DNA of 64,000 bases, from assembly GCA_003326205.1 (NCBI GenBank), contig LWTK01000036.1:496001-560000 (forward strand). Reading direction: 5' to 3'. The notes beneath the pieces are model-generated. The model searched no databases, was not told the origin of the DNA, and saw only the letters and a list, made by a program, of their open reading frames with translations. This document shows, piece by piece, positions 2,206 through 62,174 of the stretch. This DNA comes from Nostoc sp. ATCC 43529. GTDB lineage: Bacteria; Cyanobacteriota; Cyanobacteriia; Cyanobacteriales; Nostocaceae. Both the position numbers and the translations under genes were made by a program. Positions within the stretch are counted from its first letter, which is position 1, and each line of letters begins with the position of its first letter.

Positions 2206-3870
2206 GTGAGCTTGTCACGTCCCAAAGAAAACTATTTTTGGAATAGGTTTAATGAACCATTACCAGAGCAACTCCATCTAGTTGAAGCTAACGAGTTTCT
2301 CCCTCGTATCAGCAAGTGGACTAGCATAGGTGCGGGAGTTCTGCTGACTACTTTTGTAGTAGGGGTGACTTTAACATCTGTTCTGAATTACAACGTTACG
2401 GTCAAAGTTCCTGCAACTATTCGACCGGTGGGAGAATTACGGGTTGTTCAGTCTGCGATGACTGGAAGCATTCAAAACATTAATGTTCAGGAAAATCAAG
2501 TGGTGACTCAGGGGCAAGCTATTGCGACTATTGATGATTCCCGCCTCCAGACTCAAAAGAGTCAACTAGAAAATAGTATTAGGCAGAGTAAATTGCAACT
2601 AACTCAAATTGATGCTCAACTGCGTGAAATTGAGATTCAGATTGCAGCGCAGATAAGTTTAAATAACCGCTCGATTATAGCTGCACAAGCCCAATTAGAT
2701 GGTACACAACGCAACTATGAAGATCGGCAAGTTATAGCTACAGCTGAAATGGCACAAGCACAAGCAATCTTGACTTTTGCTAAGGCGCAACAAGAGCGAT
2801 CGCAACAACAAAAACTCTTCACAGCAACTCTAGAAGAAGCTAAAACTGCTTTGACTTTAGCTAAAGTTCAACGCGATCGATTGCAACGAGAAAAAGTTTT
2901 AACCGCAACTGTACAAGAAGCGGAAGCTGCTTTAACTTTAGCTAGGGTGCAACGCGATCGCTTGCAGCCAATAGTAGCATCGGGGGCTGTTCCTCAAAAT
3001 CTATTTGAGGAAAAAGAACAAGCAATTATATCTGCTGAGGCGAAACTAGAACAAGCTAAAGCTAATGCTAAAAATCTCCAGGAGGAAAAAGAACAAGCGG
3101 TTAAAACGGCTCAAGCGAAGCTAGAACAAGTCAAAGACAGTGGTAAAAATATCCTGGAGGAAAAAGAACAAGCCTTGAGGGTCGCCGAAACAAACCTAAA
3201 AAAGGCTAAAACCGCCATTAATCCTACTAATGCTGGTGTAACCGTTGCATCTGAACGGATTAAGCAGGAACAGGCTAGAGGTGAGGCTACCTTAGCTGCT
3301 TTGAAAAAAGAACGAGAAACTCTACTCCAGCAGCGCCTTGAACTTCAAAAGGAAATCGATCGCACCACTAAAGAACTGCAACAGCTCAAAACAGACCTCG
3401 ATCGAAGTATAGTGCGATCGCCAATCACCGGAACACTGCTGCAATTGAATCTTCGCAACCCAGGACAGGTAGTACAGCCAAGCGAAGCCATTGCTCAGAT
3501 TGCTCCTCTTAATGCACCTTTACTTATTAAAGCTCGTGTACCTGCTCAAGACATTGACAAGGTAAAACCAGGACAACAAGTCAAAATGCAGGTTTCTGCT
3601 TGTCCCTATCCAGACTACGGTACCCTCAACGGCAGCGTCAAAACCATTGCCCCAGATGCCCTACCAATTGTCAAAAACAATCAAAATCCAAGTGTAGTCC
3701 AAGTAGTTGCCTACGAAGTAACTATTGAACCCCAAACTCGATATGTTGCTAGAAGCGATCGCAAATGTTATCTCAAATCTGGCATGGAAGGTAGATCTGA
3801 TATTATTTCCCGCCAAGAAACTGTACTTCAATTTATTCTCAGAAAAGCCAGATTTATTACGGAATTTTGA
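2206..3870 (+). CDS. HlyD-family membrane fusion protein of a peptide exporter
   Basis: This 554-residue adaptor links an inner-membrane C39 ABC exporter to the outer envelope. One N-terminal membrane segment (about residues 38-60) is followed by a biotinyl-lipoyl half motif (GSIQNINVQENQVVTQGQ), a long coiled coil (about 115-390), the second lipoyl half (IVRSPITGTLLQL) and a beta-barrel domain. It ends in ETVLQFILRKAR, as is usual for cyanobacterial members, so the C-terminus is complete. The coiled coil is built from internal copies (VQRDRLQ twice, EEKEQA three times). It starts at GTG 2206 after AAAGG. The ABC partner lies 150 bp downstream. Confidence 0.9.
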   Translation: MSLSRPKENYFWNRFNEPLPEQLHLVEANEFLPRISKWTSIGAGVLLTTFVVGVTLTSVLNYNVTVKVPATIRPVGELRVVQSAMTGSIQNINVQENQVVTQGQAIATIDDSRLQTQKSQLENSIRQSKLQLTQIDAQLREIEIQIAAQISLNNRSIIAAQAQLDGTQRNYEDRQVIATAEMAQAQAILTFAKAQQERSQQQKLFTATLEEAKTALTLAKVQRDRLQREKVLTATVQEAEAALTLARVQRDRLQPIVASGAVPQNLFEEKEQAIISAEAKLEQAKANAKNLQEEKEQAVKTAQAKLEQVKDSGKNILEEKEQALRVAETNLKKAKTAINPTNAGVTVASERIKQEQARGEATLAALKKERETLLQQRLELQKEIDRTTKELQQLKTDLDRSIVRSPITGTLLQLNLRNPGQVVQPSEAIAQIAPLNAPLLIKARVPAQDIDKVKPGQQVKMQVSACPYPDYGTLNGSVKTIAPDALPIVKNNQNPSVVQVVAYEVTIEPQTRYVARSDRKCYLKSGMEGRSDIISRQETVLQFILRKARFITEF

Positions 3871-18142: not shown

Positions 18143-18180
18143 TTGATTATATTGATTAAACAAACTGCCAATTTTAAATT

Positions 18181-18238
18181 GGTCATTAGTCATTGGTCAT
18201 TGGTCATTGGTCATTAGTCATTAGTCATTGGTCATTTA
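18181..18238. repeat. heptamer tandem repeat (TCATTGG/TCATTAG)
   Basis: About eight copies of GTCATTR lie directly before the DMT transporter gene on its 5' side and reach into one possible N-terminus of that gene. Same STRR class as at 15300, 35437, 57450 and 62108. Confidence 0.8.
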
Positions 18239-23342: not shown

Positions 23343-23654
23343 ATGGCAGATAGAACCAAAATTATTTCCTTTCAACTTTCTGACGGCAAAATAATTAAAG
23401 TAGAGGTTACGCCTATAGGGGAACAACCTGTTTCTGATGAAACCAGAGTTTTTAAACAAGCCACGGAAATTATTAAATCCATTGCTGAAGATGTCGCAAG
23501 TACATTAAAAGATATTAGCGAGACAGTCAAACCAGATAAATTTAGTGTCAAACTAGGTTTACAAATTGGAGTTGAGTCAGGACAACTAACCGCTTTAATT
23601 GTCAAAGGAACAGGCACAGCTAACTTAGAAATTACGATGGAATGGGGTAAATAA
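23343..23654 (+). CDS. CU044_2847 family (Trypco1-type) protein
   Basis: This 103-residue protein has the pattern of the CU044_2847/Trypco1 family: an N-terminal beta-rich KIISFQLSDGKIIKVEV, a central helix (residues about 42-65, ATEIIKSIAEDVASTLKDI) and a C-terminal SVKLGLQIGVESGQ..ANLEITMEWG. Trypco1 (trypsin co-occurring domain) proteins are described next to trypsin-like proteases and STAND ATPases in predicted conflict systems. Here the next gene begins 4 bp after the stop and is a STAND-like ATPase. It is probably the sensor or effector-coupling part. Family assignment is from memory of the pattern. Confidence 0.75.
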   Translation: MADRTKIISFQLSDGKIIKVEVTPIGEQPVSDETRVFKQATEIIKSIAEDVASTLKDISETVKPDKFSVKLGLQIGVESGQLTALIVKGTGTANLEITMEWGK

Positions 23655-23657
23655 AAG

Positions 23658-24794
23658 TTGATTGTCTTACACAATTTACTAACAGGTAAAGTTTGTGGAA
23701 TTGTGCATCTTTCCCGTGATGAGGGTAACGATTTAGGTGGGCGGGCAGTTTCGGCTCAAATGATTGTAAAACACTTTCCCGAAATTGCGTTGCTTAATAA
23801 ACAATTGCATCAGTCAAAGCCCGAAGGGGATAATCCATTTGAATATGGTCTTCCTGTTCCTCCACAACGTTTTTACGGACGGAGAAAAGAGATTTTAGAG
23901 ATTAAAAACCGCATTGGCGCGATTAGTCCTCAATGTGTCAATTTGATAGGCTTGCGGCGCAATGGAAAAACCTCTATATTGCGATATATCAAAGAAAAAA
24001 TCAGCGAATTTTGTTCGCCACAACAAAAGCCTTTAGTTGTTTTTTTAGATTTAACGAGTAAGAATTTTCATACTCCAGAGGGGATTATTGAAGGCTTAAG
24101 GCGAGGGATTCAGAAACTAACAGGGAATTATCCTTGGTTAAAGGAAGATAATGAAGATGGCTTTGCAGTAGAAGATGGCTTACAGGTGTTAGTAGATGAA
24201 GGGTATCGTTTAATTATTTTATTGGATGAATTTGAAGCCATTGCTAGTAAAAAAGATAGATTGGAATTGTTTCAGGATTGGGGAGAAGATTGGCGTTCTA
24301 AGGCTTGTGCGGGTTTATTAACAATGGTAATTGCCAGCAAACGCCCTCTTAATGAAGTTTACGAAACTTTGAGTATGGGTTCACCCTTTGCCAATATTTT
24401 CAGTACGACTATTTTAGGGGCATTAGAGGAGGAAGCTTGGCAAAGCATCATCCAGAAAGGATTTCCGGCTAATTCTGCGCTATTGGAATGGGTGGATGAG
24501 TTAGCAGGAGGGTTGCCCTATTATGTGCAGATGATGGGGGCGATGTTGTGGCAATATGGGAATCAAGAAATAGCTAAAAATGAGTTTAATTTTCAAGCAA
24601 AGCCTCGTTTTGAAGAACTTTGGAAAGATTTAACCGAAGTTGAACGTTTAGCATTGTGTTATGAGTTGGGAGGGGGTAATTTACCTATTAGCGATCGGGC
24701 AATTGTAGATAGGCTTCAGCGTCATGGGTTATTACGGAAGAATGGGGGTTTATTTAGCAGTGTGTTTGCAGAGTTTGTGAAAGGTCAAAGATAA
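23658..24794 (+). CDS. STAND/AAA-type ATPase with trypsin-like-domain tail at its N-terminus
   Basis: The 378-residue frame has a P-loop ATPase module: NPFEYG..RFYGR before Walker A LRRNGKTSIL (about residue 100), Walker B LIILLDEFEAI (about 190), a sensor-like VIASKRP and a C-terminal winged-helix-like part. The first 45 residues (TGKVCGIVHLSRDEG..NDLGGRAVSAQMI..FPEI) look like the C-terminal end of a trypsin-like effector domain, but the segment with the catalytic His, Asp and Ser is absent. The frame opens at TTG 23658; a later ATG at 23760 would skip most of the tail. A 5' deletion is therefore inferred. Confidence 0.75.
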   Translation: MIVLHNLLTGKVCGIVHLSRDEGNDLGGRAVSAQMIVKHFPEIALLNKQLHQSKPEGDNPFEYGLPVPPQRFYGRRKEILEIKNRIGAISPQCVNLIGLRRNGKTSILRYIKEKISEFCSPQQKPLVVFLDLTSKNFHTPEGIIEGLRRGIQKLTGNYPWLKEDNEDGFAVEDGLQVLVDEGYRLIILLDEFEAIASKKDRLELFQDWGEDWRSKACAGLLTMVIASKRPLNEVYETLSMGSPFANIFSTTILGALEEEAWQSIIQKGFPANSALLEWVDELAGGLPYYVQMMGAMLWQYGNQEIAKNEFNFQAKPRFEELWKDLTEVERLALCYELGGGNLPISDRAIVDRLQRHGLLRKNGGLFSSVFAEFVKGQR

Positions 24795-24831: not shown

Positions 24832-27759
24832 ATGTTGCTGTTTTTGCGAGAAACTTGGGAACTATTTTGGTGGGCGATGTTTTGTCCTTCAAGGCTTCAG
24901 CACCGAATGAATGAATGGTTGCCTCAAATAGAAAAATATGGACGCAGACCAGACACAAGTTTTTTTGATACTTTATTTTTCGGAAATGTACGATTTATAA
25001 GTCAGTATTTATTATTATTATTTATTTTTAATATCCCTCTTATTTTAAGACTGATTGAGGGTAATCAATTGTTAGATTGGTTACAGTTACCTTGTGTAAT
25101 ATTAATTGCTTATCTGACAGGATTTTTATTTTTACCTTTAGGACTGCTTATTTCCTTTTTGTGGTTGATAGTTATATTAAATCAGCCTGATAGCTGCTTA
25201 AAGGGCTTAATAGAAGCTATTAAAGTTTTACCTCCTTTACCTCAAATAGGGATAGGTCTTGCAGTTTTGGTAGTATCTTTATCATTAACTGTTTGGTTAG
25301 CGTTCCAACGGTTAGAAAAAAAACATCTTTCCCTTGCACATAATGTGATGGTGATAGGGGGAACAATCAGTGTGATGTTAGGTGCATGGTTAGCAACTGA
25401 AAATTGGTGGTTTCTGTTGTTAACCAGTGGGATTACAAGCATTGCCTTATTTTCCTTAAAAAAAGAGATTACCGATAGTGATGATGTATTTATCGTGGCG
25501 GGAGTCGTGGCGTTTCTCGTAGCGGCAGCCGTAGCGGGAGTCGTGGCGTTCATCGTGGCGGCAGCCGTGGCGGGAGTCGTGGCGGGAATCGTGGCGTTCA
25601 TCGTGGCGGGAGTCGTAGCGGGAGTCGTGGCGTTCATCGTGGCGGCAGCCGTGGCGGGAGTCGTGGTAGTAGGCGTGGCGTTCATCGTGGCGGAAGTCAT
25701 GGCGGAAGTCGTGGCGTTCATCGTGGCGTTCGTCGTGGCGGGAGTCGTAGCGGGAGTCGTGGCGGGAGTTGCTACTTTACCGCTTACTTGGTTTTCCGTT
25801 GTTGCAAGTTTAATAGCTTTTGCTCTTGCACCAGCAAAAGACAACAGAGTTTTTATCACCGCTACAGTGATTTTAATAGCTGTTTCTGTCCAAAATTTAG
25901 GATGGCTTTCAGCATTAATCATCCCTTTAACCTTAGTCAGCTATTACAGAATATTTCCTGATTATTACTTTATCTCTTCAGCTTGTTATTATAAATTTCC
26001 TGATTATTCACTAAAAATTTTCAGAGTTCCAGATTCAATCATTAGGCGGTTACGTGCCCAAACAGAAAAAATATTTTTTCAATTACCTCAATTACCTCCT
26101 TACACTAGCGAACTCCTGTGGATACCTTTACCTAATCATACTCAACTTCTTGTTTCTGAATTTCGTGAAAGACCTCAACAAGCCTTAACAATCTTTCAAT
26201 ATACCCAAACTTTTTCCTTACCAGGATTTCAAATAACCTTGGAAAATGCCTTACCACAAATTGTCGCTGACCAACTCAAGCAAATTCAAAGTATTCCAGA
26301 ACTAATCTTTACTGCCAACTCAGACCATCCAATATTACCCTTCCTCATTTCTCCCTTTTATCACCTCAATTCTGACAGCTATACTCCCACTCCAGAAACA
26401 CCTTTACCAAAGATTAAACCCGAACTTTCTATCCTTCTTCCTCGCTTGCAAACTATTATTCAAGATATTCAATCTGCACTTGAAAATAAAAATATACCCC
26501 TACGGGAACGAGGATTAGAAAAAATCAATAACAAGCTTGTTCAATTACAATCTCAATTACCCTCTCTTGGACTTAAAGACGAAGCCATCAAACGCTGGAC
26601 ACCTGTACTGGAACATTGGCAAAGGGTTATTGAACTGGAACAAAATGAACAACGCAAACTCTCTCAAGGCGAACTAATCAACCCGTTCCAATATGGAAAT
26701 CCGGTGCGACTTGAGCAAAAAAACTTGTTTAAAGGTCGTCAGAGATTTGCTAATGAAATTGTCCGTCGAGTTTTAGACCGTGACCGACCTACCCTTGTGC
26801 TGCATGGCCCCCGTCGCTGTGGTAAAACTTCCTTTTTGTATAACTTTCCCCGCCTGCTTCCCAGTGATATCCTCCCCGTATTTCTGGATATGCAAAGTTC
26901 CGCCATTACCACCAGCGAATCTGACTTTTGCTTTGGCTTAGTCCGTGCAATTCATAAAGACTGCAAAAGTCAAGGGGTTCAATTACCAAACATTCCTAAA
27001 CGCAATGATTTTCAACCTACTCCCTATACCACCTTAGAAGATTGGTTGGATGAAGCATTTGACCAAATCGGAGAACGGCGCATCCTTCTCAACCTTGATG
27101 AATTTGAAAAAATCGGTACTGCCATCCAAAAGGGACAGATAACTTTACGTTTATTTGACCAACTACGCCACTTAATTCAACATTACGAACAACTCGGTTT
27201 TCTGTTTTCTGGTGTGCAAACTTTAGAGGAATTAGGGCCGAATTGGAGTAGCTATTTTATCAGCGTTGTCCCGATAGAAATGCTTTATCTTGAACCTAAC
27301 GAAGCCGAGGAATTACTCCTTAATCCAGATCCATATTTTGCACTGCGTTACGATTCAGGGATTGTAGAAGAAGTATTAAAGCTTACCAATTGTCACCCTT
27401 ACTGCCTACAATTATTGGGCGCATCAATGGTGAATCAAGCTAACTTTAACCATACTGATTTGATTACTGCTGAACTCTTGCAAGCTTCTATTAATGACGC
27501 ATTTATTTCCGGTCAGCCTTATTTTACAAATATTTGGACAGAGTTTACAGGAACTACACCAGAAGAAATTGTAATTGGTCAAGAATTATTATTACAAGTT
27601 GCCAAGACAGATATTTTATTAGCTATAAGTACTGAAATTGTTCAAAAAGTCTTAACCCGTTTGTTGCGTTATCATATTTTACACGAAATTAATGGAGGAT
27701 ATGATTTTGAAATTCCTCTGTTAAAACAATGGGTGAGAGAGCGTGCAATAAAAAGCTAA
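24832..27759 (+). CDS. membrane-anchored STAND-like ATPase with repeat-encoded membrane region
   Basis: This 975-residue protein begins with an aromatic-rich N-terminus, then about five membrane helices (55-210), a 92-residue uninterrupted hydrophobic stretch (222-313) made of 23 VA-x-x tetrapeptides, further helices (about 315-365), a linker (about 390-610), and a C-terminal P-loop ATPase. The ATPase has [13 protein letters not shown], Walker [14 protein letters not shown] (about 658) and Walker [12 protein letters not shown] (about 750). The ATPase resembles that of the preceding gene. Gene order suggests one operon with 23343-24794. A defence or signalling role is inferred, not shown. Confidence 0.8.
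25495..25770 (+). repeat. 23 tandem 12-bp units inside the membrane ATPase gene
   Basis: The unit is GTGGCG plus a variable hexamer (GGAGTC, TTCATC, GCAGCC, GAAGTC, GGAATC and others), 276 bp in all with no interruption. Since 12 is divisible by 3, gain or loss of units keeps the frame and adds or removes Val-Ala-x-x tetrapeptides. The GC content is much higher than in the flanking gene. The antisense strand is also open over this stretch, but only as a result of the repeat. Confidence 0.95.
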
Positions 27760-30885: not shown

Positions 30886-31019
30886 GGACAAGGAAGACAA
30901 GGAAGACAAGGAAGACAAGGCAGACAAGGGAGATGGGGAAAATAACTCCTAACTCCTAACTCTCAACTCCTAACTCCTAACTCCTAACTCCCAATCCCCA
31001 ATCCAAAATCTAAAATCCA
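30886..31019. repeat. tandem repeats between the ABC genes
   Basis: Four to five copies of AAGGAAGACA are followed by about six heptamers of the CCTAACT type and by AATCCAAAATC copies. This splits the ATPase and permease genes by 156 bp, although they probably form one operon. Confidence 0.75.
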
Positions 31020-43628: not shown

Positions 43629-43826
43629 TGACTGGGGACTGGGGACTGGGAAATGGGGAGATGGGGAAGTGTGGGGAGTGTGGGGGGAAAGAGAATGTAT
43701 GCTTCCTCTTCCTCCCATATCTCCCACACTCCTTGCTTGCCCAATCCCAATGCCCCAATCCCAATGCCCCAATCCCCAGTCCCCAGTCCCCAGTCCCCAG
43801 TCCCCAGTCCCCAGTCCCCATCCCAA
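43628..43826. repeat. long inverted array of ACTGGGG/CCCCAGT heptamers
   Basis: GACTGGG heptamers (43630-43655) and a GTGTGGGG block face about seven CCCCAGT/CCCAATG heptamers (43740-43822), so the 200-bp unit can fold back on itself. It separates the TPR gene from the small membrane protein gene at 43829. Open frames on both strands here are products of the repeat. Confidence 0.85.
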
Positions 43827-43828
43827 TC

Positions 43829-61429: not shown

Positions 61430-62110
61430 ATGGCGACTATCAACCAGTCCTCAACCAAGCAAGAAATCCTAGAGTACCTGCACAAGCACGAAAAAGCAAC
61501 GGCTATTGAGCTAGCTGAAGTTTTGGAAGTCAGCAAGCAAGCGATTCGCCGTCACCTCAAAGATTTGGAGACGGACGAGTTAGTTTTGTTTTCGATATCA
61601 GAACAAGCCGGAATGGGGCGTCCGCAGCACGTTTATCAACTGAGTCGTCAAGGACGCGATCGCTTGCATCGGACAATGAGCGATAAATTTGGTGATGCTA
61701 GCGGCAATTTTGCGGTTTCACTGCTCGATACCTTAGCTGAAACCGTAGGATACGACCAATTTAAATCAATTTTACAAAAGCAGTGGGAGCGTAAAGCACA
61801 AGAATATCGCGATCGCGTGGGTAACGGTTCCCTAAAAGAACGTGTAGCCAACCTAGTAGAGTTGAGAAAAGCCGAAGGCTTCATGGCCGAGTATCACTCC
61901 GTTGATGTGCCTGACTCCTCTAGAGGTGAAAGCTTCATATTAATAGAACATAACTGCGCCATTTCCAACGTTGCTGAATCTTTCCCCACCATTTGCGGTC
62001 ATGAATTACAAATGTTTGCTGCTGTCTTACCAGACTGTACTGTAGAACGCACCCACTGGATTATCAACGGCGAACACCGTTGTGGTTATTTGGTGCAAGC
62101 TTGTAATTAG
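61430..62110 (+). CDS. sufR: transcriptional repressor SufR
   Basis: This 226-residue regulator has an N-terminal winged helix-turn-helix (EVLEVSKQAIRRHLKDLETDELV) and a C-terminal Fe-S-binding part with conserved Cys in EHNCAISN, TICGHEL, PDCTVERTHW and HRCGYLV. It holds a cluster and represses sufBCDS when Fe-S supply is adequate. Divergent from sufB over a region with two operators. Confidence 0.95.
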   Translation: MATINQSSTKQEILEYLHKHEKATAIELAEVLEVSKQAIRRHLKDLETDELVLFSISEQAGMGRPQHVYQLSRQGRDRLHRTMSDKFGDASGNFAVSLLDTLAETVGYDQFKSILQKQWERKAQEYRDRVGNGSLKERVANLVELRKAEGFMAEYHSVDVPDSSRGESFILIEHNCAISNVAESFPTICGHELQMFAAVLPDCTVERTHWIINGEHRCGYLVQACN

Positions 62111-62174
62111 TCATTAGTCATTAGTCATTAGTCATTAGTCATTAGTTATTAGTCATTAGTCATTAGTTATTAGT
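62108..62174. repeat. heptamer tandem repeat (TCATTAG)
   Basis: Nine or so copies of GTCATTA/GTTATTA follow the sufR stop. Same STRR class as at 15300, 18181, 35437 and 57450. Confidence 0.85.

Follow-up and report, generated by a model that had tools for sequence, protein, structure and literature searches.

An in-frame 12-bp tandem repeat of variable length in the predicted membrane segment of STAND-like ATPases of cyanobacteria

A gene for a putative membrane ATPase with an internal tandem array of 12-bp units lies on a stretch of 64,000 nucleotides from Nostoc sp. ATCC 43529 (contig LWTK01000036.1, positions 496,001 to 560,000 of the forward strand), which is called the window here. It is the last member of a gene trio, preceded by a gene for a small Trypco1 protein and by another ATPase gene. 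The features of the locus, in window coordinates, are as follows.

23343-23654, plus strand: small protein with Trypco1 (trypsin-co-occurring domain 1), first gene of the trio (Pfam PF19493, E=2.9e-17)
23658-24794, plus strand: AAA/STAND-like ATPase gene without its N-terminal trypsin-like domain (AAA_22, 2.7e-5, below the Pfam gathering score)
24832-27759, plus strand: predicted membrane ATPase gene with the array, 975 aa (open reading frame; AAA_22 match)
24832-25494, plus strand: N-terminal part with hydrophobic segments and the conserved start MLLFLRE...ELFWWA (alignment A2, hydropathy)
25495-25770, plus strand: in-frame array of 23 units of 12 bp, encoding Val-Ala-x-x (letters, Tandem Repeats Finder, codon shuffles)
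25531-25578, plus strand: four-unit block of 48 bp, copy 1 (exact match to 25615-25662)
25615-25662, plus strand: four-unit block of 48 bp, copy 2 (identical to 25531-25578)
25771-25950, plus strand: conserved hydrophobic segments after the array, limits approximate (alignment A2)
26419-27756, plus strand: C-terminal part with the ATPase domain, residues 530-975 (AlphaFold2, Foldseek)

The array had been described in a sequence-only reading as 23 uninterrupted 12-mers over 276 bp, in which GTGGCG alternates with a variable hexamer. Indeed, the 23 units are consecutive and in frame with the open reading frame 24832-27759, and GTGGCG opens 17 of them; the remaining first hexamers are GTAGCG (4), GTGGTA (1) and ATGGCG (1). 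The second hexamer is of nine kinds, namely GGAGTC (8), TTCATC (5), GCAGCC (3), GAAGTC (2) and five singletons. Tandem Repeats Finder gives two periods, 12 bp with 23.1 copies and 48 bp with 5.5 copies. Duplication of larger blocks, which had also been proposed, is borne out by the exact 48-bp duplicate; when the units were shuffled 300 times, about 1% of the shuffled arrays had a repeated block of this length (four units). Adjacent units are also more alike than shuffled ones. The array score is 34.4, against a maximum of 2.6 in 1000 codon shuffles of the open reading frame, and GC content is 67% in the array and 40% in the whole frame. With a stricter repeat pattern, the window array is the sole match in its own genome; another own-genome match (C34:194204) was, from its letters, taken as an unrelated simple repeat. 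An antisense open frame of 226 aa, rich in Thr, Ala and Pro, spans the array (25242-25922, minus strand) and is taken as a by-product of codon make-up. The window also has many 7-bp tandem repeats (18178-18236, 30943-30991, 43740-43828, 62106-62174 and others), of a kind common in heterocystous cyanobacteria, and imperfect tandem repeats of 81 and 75 bp at 2773-2966 and 3007-3173.

In the array protein, AAA_22 is matched at 3.6e-6 with 27.8 bits, just over the Pfam gathering cut-off of 27. ATPase_2 and nSTAND1 are below cut-off in this protein, and nSTAND1 is above it in the paralogues L092 and L100. The motif GPRRCGKT at residues 659-666 (26806-26829) is presumably the P-loop. An AlphaFold2 model of residues 530-975, for which an alignment of 39 diverse relatives was used, has pLDDT mostly of 74-94, with dips to 51 (residues 621-630), 69 (631-640) and 68 (801-810); a model from 13 close orthologues had a mean pLDDT of 37 and was dropped. 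The best Foldseek matches are the archaeal ATPase_2 proteins 2qen (E 1.4e-8) and 2fna (2.1e-8), and ORC/Cdc6, RuvB, clamp loaders and plant NLRs (NLR at about 2-3e-6) stand lower in the list. Whole-query TM-scores are at most 0.26, the match being limited to the ATPase part. Profile match and modelled fold place the array protein among the STAND/AAA ATPases, with a predicted P-loop domain of the ATPase_2/nSTAND type. Alignment A2, run as a profile against solved structures, gave no match at E up to 1, and the array protein of the window had no match in PADLOC or NCBIfam. Its partners and paralogues showed only weak partial matches in PADLOC, the best being 3e-5 over 40 residues of L091, and the best NCBIfam match among paralogues was 1.9e-4 to a model of a flagellar protein, whose cut-off it missed by far.

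The array is hydrophobic throughout, and hydropathy exceeds 1.6 nearly continuously across approximately residues 215-335. The hydrophobic segments are long enough for membrane spanning, and the protein is predicted to be multipass. Over the array, AlphaFold with the 39-relative alignment draws two long helices at a confidence (pLDDT about 32-54) too low for helices to be counted, be it the four membrane helices proposed in the sequence-only reading or another number.

The order Trypco1, ATPase and array gene is kept in all 14 related loci examined, each with Trypco1 upstream, and in 11 of the 14 the trio is flanked by the window's own neighbour genes. In relatives, the N-terminus of the partner ATPase is a trypsin-like domain (Trypsin_2, 1.6e-20 in L042). 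This domain is full-length in all 14 related loci besides the window, and a search of 15 loci, from 13 genomes other than that of the query, found it complete in each. In the window, the partner ATPase at 23658-24794 gave no trypsin match up to E 0.1. The domain has been deleted here, and its last 23 residues are left directly after the Trypco1 stop codon (23654-23735). The combination of Trypco1, trypsin-like peptidase and NTPase is thus found in the 14 related loci, and the window has it with the peptidase domain deleted. A smaller AAA ATPase gene, as in the window, is also found near the paralogues L091, L092 and L108, and a short weak match only near L100. According to the available part of PMC7159879, Trypco1 owes its name to being found together with trypsin-like peptidases in conflict systems, and modules of the Trypco1/trypsin type can be diversified by retroelements according to the accessible part of PMC10907252. 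The earlier suggestion of a probable immune ATPase therefore gains a plausible conflict-system context from the predicted Trypco1 and trypsin neighbours.

Close members of the array gene (subfamily A) were found by protein search in 12 of 53 genomes of the genus, its own included, and the remaining matches in the 53 genomes have 20-38% identity, mostly within the ATPase part. Named relatives include Nostoc foliaceum, Nostoc calcicola, Peltigera Nostoc, Calothrix rhizosoleniae and Cyanocohniella. The sequence-only reading had proposed looking for the same repeat at the same position in homologues. In subfamily A it is there in 13 of 13 genes measured, with unit counts that differ from 2 to 28. 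Fifteen genes were seen; the measurement omits that of G026, whose frame is broken in the array, and Calothrix L046, which has the array but carries its N-terminal piece in a different frame. In L046, the N-terminal piece (2625-2840) and the array-bearing frame (from 2795 on) are apparently in different frames, and in Cyanocohniella L045 (6043-8499) about 90-100 residues before the array are missing and the array is kept. The prevailing unit is VAGV in the window and VAVV, VAAV, VAFG or VGVA in relatives.

Genes of this build extend well beyond subfamily A. Three consecutive GTGGCG-N6 units occur in 33 of the 53 genus genomes, and the reversed pattern occurs once each in three genomes. When 20 of the pattern places were opened, 18 proved to be genes with the array in frame and with the same succession of N-terminal membrane part, array, hydrophobic part and ATPase. 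Further subfamilies, B, C, D and E, were defined by the N-terminus; their members have 22-29% identity to the window protein, and many carry arrays. The genome of the window itself has two array-ATPase genes, the one described above and an E-type gene on C32. Across the phylum, 386 genomes were scanned and four consecutive units were found in 25, of which 17 were classed as members of the array-ATPase family, one was placed by resemblance (L155) and seven were unplaced (G179, where no open reading frame passed the filter, and G114, G384, G152, G416, G418 and G062). With the C-terminal 352 residues as query, plasmids gave one weak match, from Acinetobacter, at 23% identity. Viral contigs have seven stretches with the GTGGCG pattern, known by pattern match only. 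Array-ATPases are far more widespread than one window could show. The C-type gene L100 and the D-type gene L092 lie in a common chromosomal neighbourhood and have different N-termini, as if gene parts had been exchanged.

Array length turns over between species. Across 57 non-redundant genes of the five subfamilies, a non-random sample, the number of units ranges from 2 to 37; it was taken as the longest in-phase run by motif score, by which interrupted arrays (L092, L014) are undercounted. Counts are equal in 11 of 323 within-subfamily pairs, and in none of the 32 pairs with at least 93% DNA identity in the 3' flank (up to 1.2 kb), which derive from 19 genes (22 pairs in A, 5 in E, 4 in C, 1 in B) and hence are non-independent. 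The closest pair, at 96.2% flank identity, has 28 and 21 units. Distances between anchors, which are independent of unit counts and for which anchors were absent in 21 of 65 genes, gave a similar result, with equality in 4 of 154 pairs and in 0 of 30 at 93% or more. Restriction to assemblies of at most 10 contigs left equal counts in 1 of 14 pairs. The trio and its neighbours are kept and the arrays differ, which suggests vertical inheritance of the locus and renewal of the array; the flanks are conserved, and the array appears to be remade quickly at a constant position. The proposal of copy-number change with the frame kept is supported between close relatives: number and order differ, and the frame is kept in most of them. 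Identical number and order in relatives, named beforehand as the outcome that would speak against it, is not what is seen. All of these differences at the same locus are between related genomes, one genome per species.

Changes of length go mainly in steps of four residues. Taken modulo four residues, the anchor distances of 32 of 44 genes belong to the class that prevails in their subfamily (A 8/13, B 7/10, C 7/7, D 3/4, E 7/10), and none of 100,000 simulations gave so high a number. Compared with a shuffled order, identity between units is in excess at lags 1-3 (z 10.2, 7.0 and 2.7) and less clearly so at lags 4-5 (1.4), and the repeated block is longer than expected at p <0.01 in 4 of 57 arrays, the window array being at 0.01. 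Such a pattern of lags and blocks would be expected if 12-bp units were gained and lost locally and some blocks were duplicated. Several observations count against reading the array as a coding repeat of variable number (VNTR). Twelve of the 44 genes measured have lengths off the four-residue class; the difference in count shows no correlation with flank divergence (Spearman 0.05, p 0.40); unit identity has no excess at lags 6-7 and is below shuffled at lag 8 (z -2.5); and one gene, L020 of G005, has only 2-3 units with the frame intact.

Certain relatives have no array. Among 20 loci chosen by protein match, nine have arrays, four have none (L169, L170, L174, L175), three have short or odd ones (L184, L186, L187), one is frame-broken (L182) and three are cut by contig ends (L176, L183, L185). 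L118 likewise is without array, and L112 and L117 have odd arrays; in the B-type gene L112 it is built of another unit, about GTGGTATTCGCC alternating with GTGCAATTTGCC. By hydropathy, non-repeat hydrophobic segments replace the array in the five array-less relatives, and in a tree of 72 ATPase domains these five rows are nested in array-bearing clades, which needs two changes. Ordinary helices at this position in homologues had been named as an outcome that would refute the sequence-only reading; non-repeat hydrophobic segments do occur there, in a minority of 5 of the 72 rows. The array-less relatives with their hydrophobic segments point to a membrane domain in which hydrophobicity matters more than the particular sequence. 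They support the place of the array in the membrane, and equally the view that it is filler. The frame is broken in or at the array in three genes of two genomes (G026, family A, L021/L115; G025, family B, L094; and G025, L113/L182). L094 retains an intact ATPase frame downstream, and its array runs on in the new frame after the shift. The two assemblies have 9 and 1 contigs, and the breaks are either mutations or sequencing errors. Arrays were sought within open frames, so that lack of stops in them proves nothing.

The composition of the arrays is in accordance with a hydrophobic segment: charged residues amount to 2.8%, against 24% in the C-terminal part. Transitions within GTGGCG, per possible change, number 56.5 for synonymous and 46 for conservative changes, and transversions number 4 for synonymous, 17.6 for conservative and 8 for radical ones. 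Since synonymous transversions within GTGGCG are no commoner than conservative ones, selection on the exact peptide looks weak. Judging from these substitutions, hydrophobicity is kept and the exact residues hardly. At the DNA level, array codons are more uniform than the protein requires. For example, Phe is encoded by TTC in 81% of cases inside arrays and in 27% outside them in the same genes. The genes were partly collected by the GTGGCG pattern, by which the biases at codon 1 and codon 2 of the unit are inflated and those of Phe and Gly less so.

It is probable that the array is a 12-bp coding minisatellite, that is an intragenic VNTR, encoding an extensible segment in the membrane domain of a STAND-like AAA ATPase. 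Tandem units that are in frame at the DNA level, their constant position, their turnover between species, the prevailing steps of four residues and the trio with Trypco1 and a trypsin-ATPase are direct observations. In the proposed mechanism, 12-bp units and blocks would be gained or lost by replication slippage or unequal recombination, and the hydrophobic Val-Ala-x-Gly/Val segment would become longer or shorter, four residues at a time. The segment has Ala, and in most subfamilies Gly, at every fourth residue, and may lie in the membrane as packed small-xxx-small helices. The array protein may act as the membrane partner of a two-ATPase conflict module, of which the assembly or a membrane-disturbing output would depend on the array segment. 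That array length tunes the output of the module is the weakest step. In its full form, this proposal holds that slippage-changed length of a Gly/Ala zipper sets assembly or membrane disturbance in immune-like cyanobacterial ATPases with a membrane-embedded VNTR, and that phage thresholds differ between related filaments. We consider this form doubtful, and variation that is tolerated without use is likelier than length tuning.

Tolerated variation is indeed a substantial possibility. If only hydrophobicity is needed, a slippage-prone, GC-rich 12-mer could change length neutrally, and the variation would be useless. The array-less relatives nested inside array clades, the spread from 2 to 37 units with no clustering visible by eye, the weak selection on the peptide and the differently built array of L112 all agree with this. 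However, GTGGCG-based arrays recur across five subfamilies, of which B-E have low identity to the window protein, and their hosts belong to at least three families of cyanobacteria (f1, f6, f20). A neutral array should also be lost more often, although this is an expectation only. Instead of the peptide, the GC-rich 12-mer itself could be functional, as a recombination or protein-binding site, with the peptide as by-product. The uniformity of codons across diverged subfamilies would suit such a DNA element, but the opened pattern stretches nearly all hold an array-ATPase gene with the array in frame, and a search for unit exchange gave no sign of it, as paralogues within a genome were no more alike in their units (cosine 0.280, n=11) than those from different genomes (0.329, n=889; permutation p 0.74). 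We regard this explanation as improbable.

Two further explanations are very improbable. The frame breaks in three genes of two genomes could be read as a phase-variable contingency switch by which the protein is turned on and off. Gain and loss of 12-bp units cannot alter the frame, however, isolated breaks in two assemblies could be errors of sequencing, and mixed populations were not seen, so that an on/off switch by the array is unsupported. The differences in count could also be made by short-read assemblers, which miscount tandem arrays; the window comes from an assembly of 113 contigs, and many of the related genomes are drafts. Against such an artefact, assemblies of at most 10 contigs have the same spread (A 2, 14, 22; B 15, 25, 32, 34, 34; C 27, 30). 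It is largely refuted for the gene family, and the exact number of 23 in the window rests on the 113-contig assembly. The coding minisatellite in a predicted membrane segment is the reading that we retain.

Surface genes and regulatory genes are well-known sites of repeat-length variation. In the present genes, it affects the membrane domain of STAND-like ATPases, over five cyanobacterial subfamilies. If the variation is used, it would be a route to diversify immune-like modules, unlike the published retroelement route. If it is merely tolerated, it shows how little sequence this membrane domain needs, and the arrays would still be fast strain markers. No description of the array was found in the literature searched, which covered few subscription papers, and four repeat peptides searched as literature text returned unrelated papers only.

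Among known systems, membrane helices of the glycine-zipper type (GxxxG) have a small residue at every fourth position. The array resembles them in sequence pattern alone, and its pattern runs up to approximately 148 residues (37 units) and varies in length. The archaeal ATPase_2 proteins (2qen, 2fna) and NLR structures have the fold of the C-terminal domain in common with the predicted window protein, of which only the ATPase part matches. Bacterial intragenic VNTR or contingency loci are generally known, and the available part of PMC12817950 belongs here; like the present gene, they have an in-frame tandem repeat of variable copy number. The present repeat is translated into a hydrophobic membrane segment and belongs to STAND-like ATPases of five subfamilies, and its variation is known between species. 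The targets of diversity-generating retroelements, as treated in the accessible part of PMC10907252, share with this locus a hypervariable part of a putative immune NTPase system and Trypco1/trypsin neighbours. There, a lectin-fold sensor is varied by retroelement hypermutation, whereas here repeat units are gained and lost. Closest in gene content are the Trypco1/trypsin/NTPase conflict systems, for which the available portion of PMC7159879 describes a Trypco1 gene adjacent to genes for a trypsin-like peptidase and an NTPase, hosts that are multicellular bacteria, and components that diversify fast, all as here. The systems treated there are of the vWA-MoxR and GTPase kinds and are diversified by retroelements or module swapping, whereas in the array-ATPases it is a tandem array in the predicted membrane domain that varies.
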